DNA of 37,673 bases from Candidatus Omnitrophota bacterium (GTDB lineage: Bacteria; Hinthialibacterota; Hinthialibacteria; Hinthialibacterales; JAKPRU01): positions 1 through 37,673 of the forward strand of contig JAKQSI010000090.1 in assembly GCA_029570205.1 (NCBI GenBank), in the 5' to 3' direction. Of this stretch, positions 34,868 through 36,943 are shown one piece after another (positions within the stretch are counted from its first letter, which is position 1; each line of letters begins with the position of its first letter). Under the pieces are notes generated by a model. That model was not told the DNA's origin. It saw only the letters and a list, made by a program, of their open reading frames with translations, and did no database searches. The position numbers and the translations under genes are program-made.

Positions 34868-34968
34868 AAGTATACGCCCTCAATTTTCATTCCGACATCT
34901 CAATTTGATACATCATAGCAGGACTCGAGGGGAATGGTAGATGGATGGAAGATCTCAACTCATCAAAG

Positions 34969-35001
34969 ACAGGTCCAAGAATCCGCCGGGACCTGTATAA
35001 T
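34969..35001 (+). promoter_or_regulatory. Promoter with abutting inverted repeat, upstream of the ATPase gene
   Basis: ACAGGTCC (34969-34976) and GGACCTGT (34989-34996) form a perfect 8-bp inverted repeat with a 12-base gap. Its right arm shares its last T with a perfect -10 box TATAAT (34996-35001). A protein or hairpin bound here would block or tune the promoter. No good -35 box is visible, which suits an activated or repressed promoter. The ATPase start lies 36 bases downstream. Confidence 0.55.
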
Positions 35002-35036
35002 GAAGGAGCGAACGCAACCGCGAAAAGGGAACGAAT

Positions 35037-36395
35037 ATGACACCAGATCCGAAGGCAAAGAGCGGAAAAGAGAACCCGGAAGAATCCGGAATCACGAAGA
35101 TCACCGTCGAGGGATTCAAATCCATCGCGGAGAGACAATCCATTGAAATCCGCCCACTCACCATCCTTGCCGGGGCCAACAGTTCGGGTAAATCCAGCAT
35201 CATGCAGCCGCTTTTGCTGCTCAAGCAAACCGTAGAATGTGGTTACGATCCGGGACCCCTACTACTGGAAGGTCCAAATGTCTCTTATACATTACCGGAG
35301 CAGTTTCTTTCGAAGATTAGGACTGCTTCTGTCGCAAAAAGCCTTATTATTGGACTACATTTTTCTCATGACATGGAATTCAAGGTCATCTTTGACAAGA
35401 AAAAAGAATCGCGAGACCTTGATCTCCTCGAGCTCACGCAGAAGCTGGGAAGGGATGAAAAAGAACACAGTATCCGTCAAGGAATGAGTCGAGAAGAATT
35501 GTGTGATATGATTAAAGATGATGAGGGAGCCATGGGTATTATGGCGCATCTTTTCGAGCAGGCGTCAAAAGATTCACCATGGAGTATAGATCGGGATCGG
35601 TGTTTCTTCCGAGTAAGAGTCTCATCGGGAACCAGGATTACTATCCCATTAGGCCATGTTTTTGAACCGTTGATCGCAGACATAATTCACGTGCCAGGAC
35701 TCCGTGGCAATCCTGAAAGGACTTACAAGAAGACGGCAACAGGTCCCCGCTTTCCCGGCACTTTTGAGAATTATGTCGCGAGTGTTATCAGTGATTGGAA
35801 GGCAAGAAAAGACAAACGTTTGGACGATCTCAGCAAGAACCTGGAAAAGTTGGGATTGACCTGGAAAGTGGACCCCGCTGAGCGAGATGCAACTGCAATA
35901 GAAATTCGCGTCGGGCGATTGAAATGTGCAGATAACCAGGAAAAAAACGATTTGGTCAGTATTGCGGATGTGGGATTCGGGGTTTCCCAGGTTCTGCCGG
36001 TTCTGGTGGCTCTCCTTGTGGCAAAACCGGGGCAATTGGTCTACCTGGAACAGCCGGAAATCCATCTGCATCCGCGCGCGCAGGTGGCTTTGGCGGAAAT
36101 TCTGGCGGACGCGGCAAGACGTGGGGTCCGCGTGGTTGCGGAAACCCACAGCGCCATGCTTTTACTGGCCGTTCAGTCCTTGGTCGCGGAGGGAAAGATA
36201 GAAACGGATAAGGTCATATTGCATTGGTTCGAGCGTAACGAAGAAGATGGAACCACGAAGATTCGTTCCGGGGATTTGAATGAAGCGGGCGCTTATGGAA
36301 AATGGCCGGTGGATTTCGGGAAGGTGGAACTGGAATTGCAGGGCCGCTATCTGAATGCGGCGGAGGGTCACCTGTGGGGAAAATCGACGAAATGA
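35037..36395 (+). CDS. AAA/ABC-type ATPase of the OLD-like group
   Basis: This 452-residue protein is an SMC/OLD-like ATPase (AAA_15/AAA_21 type, DUF3696-like). It begins with a basic, disordered tail, then ITKITVEGFKSIAER and Walker A GANSSGKSS (about residues 46-54). After a long central insertion come the signature-like VGFGVSQVLPVL, Walker B VYLEQPEIHLHPRAQ (about residue 335) and the His switch ETHSAMLLL. No TOPRIM nuclease follows in the protein. AGGGA lies before the ATG. The central part (35280-35700) is richer in A+T than neighbouring genes. It overlaps the next gene, a PIN-like protein, so both are made together. Such ATPases often sense a trigger and control a toxic effector. Confidence 0.9.
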   Translation: MTPDPKAKSGKENPEESGITKITVEGFKSIAERQSIEIRPLTILAGANSSGKSSIMQPLLLLKQTVECGYDPGPLLLEGPNVSYTLPEQFLSKIRTASVAKSLIIGLHFSHDMEFKVIFDKKKESRDLDLLELTQKLGRDEKEHSIRQGMSREELCDMIKDDEGAMGIMAHLFEQASKDSPWSIDRDRCFFRVRVSSGTRITIPLGHVFEPLIADIIHVPGLRGNPERTYKKTATGPRFPGTFENYVASVISDWKARKDKRLDDLSKNLEKLGLTWKVDPAERDATAIEIRVGRLKCADNQEKNDLVSIADVGFGVSQVLPVLVALLVAKPGQLVYLEQPEIHLHPRAQVALAEILADAARRGVRVVAETHSAMLLLAVQSLVAEGKIETDKVILHWFERNEEDGTTKIRSGDLNEAGAYGKWPVDFGKVELELQGRYLNAAEGHLWGKSTK

Positions 36396-36943
36396 CGGAG
36401 ACCGAATCGAAGCGGGTTGTGATTGATGCTTCTATTGCCGGCGCGGCTGGGGGAGAAGCCGCAACGTATTCAACCTCGATCAACTGCACGAACTTCCTGA
36501 ATGTCTTTTACCTGGATACCGATCTTATCATGGTGATGACTCTGGAAATCCGAGGCGAGTGGAAAGAACACCGGTCTAATTTTGCATACACATTTCTCGC
36601 AAATATGGTCTCCGACGATCGAATATGTTCAATACAGGAAGACGACCTACTGGAAATCAGGAAACTCAAGTCCAAGATGGACCCAATTCCTCTGCGAAAG
36701 AAACTCCGTGAGGATCTGGAAAAAGATTTTATCTTGATAGAAGCTGCCCTGGCAACGGACAAGACAGTCATCTCTCTTGATGACAAGGCTCGCAAAGGAT
36801 TCGAGCAAATCAGCCAGGAATTGAAGAAATTGAGAAGCATCGTTTGGGTGAATCCCGACCGGCACATTGAAGCCGTGTTGTCGTGGCTGAAAGACGGTGC
36901 GAATCCGGTTGAGGAATACCGACTTGGTTTTCGTTCCGGGTGA
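36374..36943 (+). CDS. PIN-like nuclease partner of the ATPase
   Basis: This protein of about 189 residues has a PIN-like fold. Strand 1 carries Asp18 in VVIDASIAGAAGG, the conserved LEIRGEW helix has Glu58, and Glu123 (LIEAALATDK) and Asp136/Asp137 (VISLDDKAR) complete the acidic site expected for metal-dependent RNA cleavage. The start at GTG 36374 has GGAGGG at ideal spacing and overlaps the ATPase end by 22 bases; ATG 36392, overlapping as ATGA, is the alternative. The strong overlap shows translational coupling. PIN enzymes are commonly RNases in toxin-antitoxin systems and defence. The pairing with an OLD-like ATPase is the main reason to read this as a two-gene effector module; that function is inferred. 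Confidence 0.8.
   Translation: MGKIDEMTETESKRVVIDASIAGAAGGEAATYSTSINCTNFLNVFYLDTDLIMVMTLEIRGEWKEHRSNFAYTFLANMVSDDRICSIQEDDLLEIRKLKSKMDPIPLRKKLREDLEKDFILIEAALATDKTVISLDDKARKGFEQISQELKKLRSIVWVNPDRHIEAVLSWLKDGANPVEEYRLGFRSG

Follow-up and report, generated by a model that had tools for sequence, protein, structure and literature searches.

A two-gene module of an SMC/Rad50/OLD-like ATPase and a predicted PIN-fold nuclease of a previously unclassified family: a candidate conflict system

Results and Discussion

Two overlapping genes form a lone cassette

The stretch of DNA analyzed here in its whole length of 37,673 nucleotides (hereafter, the window) carries on its plus strand a gene for an SMC/Rad50/OLD-like ABC ATPase of 452 amino acids without a nuclease domain (35,037–36,395; assigned from the open reading frame list, profile searches and a structural model), followed by a gene for a protein of 183 amino acids with a predicted PIN nuclease fold (36,392–36,943; open reading frame and structure prediction). 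Both open reading frames had been placed correctly in an initial annotation made from the sequence alone. However, the 22-base overlap reported there presupposes a GTG start at 36,374, whereas the homologues align at the ATG at 36,392, the best start of the PIN gene, so that the ATPase stop and the PIN start share only the four bases ATGA (36,392–36,395; sequence and homologue alignment). Because of this shift, the residues formerly numbered Asp18 and Asp136 are Asp12 and Asp130. The arrangement of stop and start makes translational coupling of both genes likely.

An intergenic stretch (34,868–35,036) separates the ATPase gene from ychF, which lies on the minus strand. No sigma-70-like site was found on the plus strand upstream of the ATPase gene, and the promoter initially assigned to the unit was therefore not recognized; nevertheless, since the unit is divergent from ychF, it must have its own transcription start, with a promoter located in the intergenic stretch. 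With regard to the neighbors, ychF, an M23 peptidase gene and comF (the latter named by eye) flank the unit on one side, and a small unassigned opposite-strand protein, membrane-like by eye, followed by rimI-like and comM-like genes (both named by eye), on the other. The unit stands, as first described, between housekeeping genes; it is a lone cassette and not a visible defence island.

An ABC ATPase and a predicted PIN-fold nuclease

In profile searches, the ATPase matched AAA_21/AAA_15 (E ~1e-23), while DUF3696 was reached below threshold only. Its earlier description as an OLD/DUF3696-like ATPase without its own nuclease domain was confirmed in the latter respect, and no Toprim family match of the type that characterizes the C-terminus of Gabija and OLD proteins was found in the 452 residues. 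The Walker A motif (GANSSGKSS, residues 46–54; 35,172–35,198), with G51, K52 and S53 invariant, the Walker B motif (LVYLEQPE, residues 334–341; 36,036–36,059), which is conserved, and the invariant H-loop (ETHS, residues 369–372; 36,141–36,152) were recognized across 13 homologues. The structural model (mean pLDDT 72, weaker in the middle) aligned with Smc and Rad50 heads (Z up to 19.7), which cover residues 16–432, and with chains of PtuA (Septu) and retron-Eco7 (Z about 16).

The downstream protein had no match of useful significance in Pfam, NCBIfam, PADLOC or PHROGs. Its fold assignment rests on the structural model, because no solved structure matched its profile by sequence. In the model, which was built with 12 homologues (mean pLDDT 84.6), the closest solved structures were protein-only RNase P and VapC/PIN proteins, with VapC, protein-only RNase P, SMG6 and Nob1 among the top Foldseek and VIA-align matches (VapC: Z 9.7, 129 residues, 3.1 Å). 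In addition, Asp12 (motif 1, VVIDAS; 36,425–36,427), Glu56 (motif 2, GEWKEH; 36,557–36,559), Asp112 (motif 3, KDFILIEAA; 36,725–36,727) and Asp130 (motif 4, SLDD; 36,779–36,781) are invariant in 23/23 sequences and are positioned as in the PIN acidic tetrad, which agrees with the full acidic set noted initially and establishes its conservation across the family. We conclude from the model that the protein is a member of the PIN-domain superfamily and a predicted nuclease, and from the profile searches that its family was previously unclassified.

The ATPase and PIN genes stay together and diverge together

A scan of genome contigs with the ATPase alignment alone returned 12 full relatives and one distant match. 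The same PIN gene lay downstream, overlapping or a few bases apart, in all 11 ATPase loci not cut by a contig end; at the twelfth relative, from the same genus, the contig ends inside the PIN gene, the end of which is found on another contig. The reciprocal search, with the PIN alignment only, of samples of Cyanobacteria, Acidobacteria, Proteobacteria and Actinobacteria yielded 14 new loci, with the ATPase gene immediately upstream in 13 of them; the one exception is the remnant of a broken PIN gene. Furthermore, the distance matrices of both proteins correlate (Mantel r = 0.88; 0/2000 permutations as high). Pairing from either side and co-divergence thus support the two-gene module that had been proposed. 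No third conserved gene common to different phyla was found beside it. A third genome of the genus holds a related ATPase gene cut to 225 codons, with the middle missing and without a PIN partner (L010:737-1414).

Three cyanobacterial loci (L060, L065 and L066) have a broken or partly lost PIN gene; the ATPase gene is intact at L060 and L066 but missing at L065, a pattern that would fit a costly effector. A broken PIN gene beside an intact ATPase gene would also suit a stress-response toxin–antitoxin pair that is not phage-specific, in which the ATPase would act as a chaperone-like antitoxin and as a sensor of energy state or damage, and the PIN RNase would slow growth. The resemblance of the PIN fold to VapC toxins and the isolated chromosomal position amid housekeeping genes point in the same direction. 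However, VapBC pairs have a small DNA-binding antitoxin upstream, whereas the upstream partner in the window, a 452-residue ABC ATPase, greatly exceeds VapB-type antitoxins in size and matched no DNA-binding domain, and its hypervariable center (see below) suggests that it adapts to partners or triggers that change. We regard this explanation as rather unlikely.

The module is rare, patchy and mostly outside defence islands

The module is rare and patchy, being present in several phyla and in one archaeal bin. We found it in 3/14 genomes of the window's own phylum and, centre genomes included, in 11/339, 5/347, 1/398 and 1/296 genomes of the individual phylum samples, that is, in about 3% of the sampled Cyanobacteria and about 1% of the Acidobacteria, with the centre genome as the sole carrier in the samples of Proteobacteria and Actinobacteria. 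Some taxon labels are those of metagenome bins and may be wrong (one 'Nealsonbacteria' bin has 9.1 Mb); named strains carrying the module belong to Phormidium, Amycolatopsis and Tersicoccus. No PIN homologue was detected by single-sequence tblastn in two collections of phages or plasmids, nor was there any match to the ATPase in a scan of viral contigs.

Two species of the window's genus have the module at the identical place. It lies elsewhere in the genome of one order-mate, and other order-mates have ychF, mostly with its M23 neighbor, without the module there; the contig of G008, the third genome from the genus, stops short of the site, which places this genome outside the comparison. A genomic place kept in two species would be in line with a housekeeping RNA-processing or cell-cycle pair, for which there is a precedent in Cran1, an archaeal OLD-family ATPase that is apparently essential and has a non-defence role (PMC12796447). 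Nevertheless, in every group searched most members lack the module, and in some it is inactivated; it is therefore not generally essential, and we consider such a housekeeping function highly improbable.

With regard to genomic context, the module lies directly behind hsdR-hsdM-hsdS in the archaeal bin (L035) and near hsdS in an Acidobacteria-group genome (L084), while the neighbors of the remaining loci are mostly ordinary genes. An association with defence islands was thus observed in part, at two type I restriction–modification loci, with the other loci being mostly isolated cassettes. Matches to the PADLOC PD-T4-6 model near cyanobacterial loci were not counted as defence context, since we take them to be generic Ser/Thr kinases of such genomes. 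Because the defence-island context is weak in the window's ATPase–PIN family, the anti-phage role of the pair is one that we infer.

The center of the ATPase is hypervariable

The ATPase of the window and its same-genus homologue are about 93% identical at their ends and only 37% identical in a central region at about residues 95–230 (35,319–35,726), although such comparisons comprise few pairs and the alignment in the center is uncertain. In the same pair, synonymous divergence (pS) reaches 0.62–0.70 in residues 95–300, compared to 0.33–0.41 at the ends and 0.35–0.39 in flanking genes, suggesting that sequence was exchanged with a divergent allele. The central non-synonymous difference between two cyanobacterial ATPases (L072:10479-11867 and L073:7352-8755) is 0.225, against 0.014–0.036 at the ends, and a third group (L047/L049) has the same central divergence in a milder form. 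Outside a sharply bounded central block, which resembles an exchanged segment, the L072 and L073 proteins are near-identical.

A sensor engaged in an arms race would be expected to diverge in this way between close pairs, and the simplest reading of these alignments is that the center is a candidate trigger-sensing region under such pressure. Near-identical ATPases that differ almost only in a swappable center provide a testable handle on sensing.

Relationship to described ATPase–nuclease systems

The PADLOC models that best matched the ATPase were NsnB (2.8e-55), PDC-M55A and HEC-03B, followed by AriA (7e-26). The plan of an ATPase plus an effector nuclease other than those of known defence systems, as suggested initially, was upheld: the predicted effector has a PIN fold, not Toprim or HNH. 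Septu likewise joins an OLD/Rad50-like ATPase to a separate nuclease, and PtuA is a structural neighbor of the window's ATPase (Z 15.9, 281 residues, 3.8 Å), but PtuB is an HNH protein, whereas the downstream protein of the window has no HNH match. PrrC and RloC, the nuclease domain of which is HEPN, also place an RNase under a Rad50-like ATPase; however, they are single proteins, in contrast to the two genes and the PIN fold found here. Both are anticodon nucleases in which an ABC/Rad50-like ATPase controls the RNase, with PrrC linked to type I restriction–modification and RloC to DNA breaks (PMC3874168). PARIS, whose AriA is among the matches above, shares the ATPase sensor and separate effector nuclease, but its effector AriB is a Toprim nuclease that cuts tRNA (PMC12409363), and the PIN protein has no PADLOC AriB match. 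In Menshen (NsnABC), which provides the best-matching ATPase profile, the partners include a DUF262 protein as well as a component predicted to be an OLD-type nuclease (PMC10952713). No such partner is present here: the neighbors are the PIN gene, ychF, the M23 peptidase gene and the small protein gene, and the NsnA and NsnC profiles did not match the PIN protein.

The nearest described system is HEC-03, a PADLOC candidate. Its existence means that the ATPase–PIN idea, for which the initial annotation knew of no named function, is not wholly unnamed, although the PIN families differ. Both share a common plan, an OLD-like ATPase and a short, overlapping, downstream PIN-like gene (in HEC-03, the DUF3696 ATPase HEC-03B and the PIN-like HEC-03A), and their ATPases are homologous (about 27% identity between that of the window and an Aeromonas member). 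However, the window's ATPase matched the HEC-03B profile at 1e-38, compared to 8e-138 and 1e-133 for true members, and scored higher with NsnB; moreover, the PIN protein did not match HEC-03A at E up to 1, and hhalign gave a probability of 11% over 52 columns, so that both PIN proteins are not detectably one family. One genome of the same phylum carries a true HEC-03 pair. Sister ATPases of the phylum mostly overlap or adjoin small downstream genes, Toprim-like or other PIN-like by eye; at L008:553-2369, a related ATPase is accompanied by a different small PIN-like protein (weak PIN_3 match, E 0.027). Our literature search turned up no paper on DUF3696 together with either PIN or an RNA ligase, although the main ABC-ATPase classification paper could still mention it.

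Consequently, what is known is the plan of an ATPase sensor with a separate effector nuclease, and what is new here is the uncatalogued PIN family and the hypervariable sensor candidate. A new PIN nuclease family tied to a sensor-like ATPase would extend the growing list of immune systems that combine an ATPase with a nuclease.

A proposed mechanism

By analogy with PARIS or PrrC/RloC, we propose, with a probability of roughly 60%, that the pair is a self-contained two-protein conflict system in which the ATPase acts as a sensor that licenses a PIN RNase. The Rad50/OLD-like ATPase would dimerize or oligomerize and, in a putative complex, keep the PIN nuclease inactive. Its hypervariable center would sense a trigger, probably phage-made and perhaps an anti-restriction protein or damaged DNA, whereupon ATP binding or hydrolysis would release or activate the PIN protein. 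The latter may then cut RNA by means of a metal site formed by D12, E56, D112 and D130, with tRNA or some other structured RNA of the host as the most plausible target, and this cutting would halt translation and phage growth. Because AriB cuts tRNA (PMC12409363) and because of the parallel with RloC and PrrC (PMC3874168), we consider the most likely form of the mechanism to be a PIN RNase that is gated by the ATPase and shuts down translation when infection occurs.

Certain PIN-like nucleases act on DNA, and the pair could instead be a Septu- or Gabija-style nuclease that supplements restriction or responds to DNA breaks. The Rad50/PtuA-like ATPase head and the modules within type I restriction–modification loci would fit DNA cutting, but most top structural neighbors of the PIN model are RNases or RNA-processing proteins and the sister branch carries an RNA ligase, which together make this alternative quite unlikely.

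RNA ligase genes in the HEC-03 branch

On plasmids of Aeromonas, Azotobacter, Tistrella and Rhodococcus, HEC-03 is accompanied by a PF09414 RNA ligase (E 1e-31 to 3e-34), and HEC-03-type pairs are directly followed by this ligase gene at L094:5998-8626, L097:2614-5232, L099:2733-5193, L100:2619-5181 and L101:2611-5239. Such a third gene is thus frequent in the plasmid modules, whereas none was found near the loci of the window's ATPase–PIN family, the ligase being confined to the sister branch. Its presence in these relatives fits an RNA-cutting PIN protein, and judging from gene content the ATPase, PIN protein and ligase of the HEC-03 plasmids possibly form an RNA damage-and-repair triad. This raises the question of whether some such systems damage and then repair host RNA. 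Extending the proposed ATPase-gated RNase mechanism, we put forward only tentatively a distinct type of defence: an ATPase whose sensor region recombines and can be swapped would license a PIN tRNase, and the RNA ligase of the HEC-03 branch would reseal the cut, making the response reversible.

At an HEC-03-type locus on an Acinetobacter soli plasmid (L098:1-5296), an N-6 DNA methylase gene lies upstream and an HNH endonuclease gene replaces that of the RNA ligase; the ATPase is annotated there as two open reading frames.
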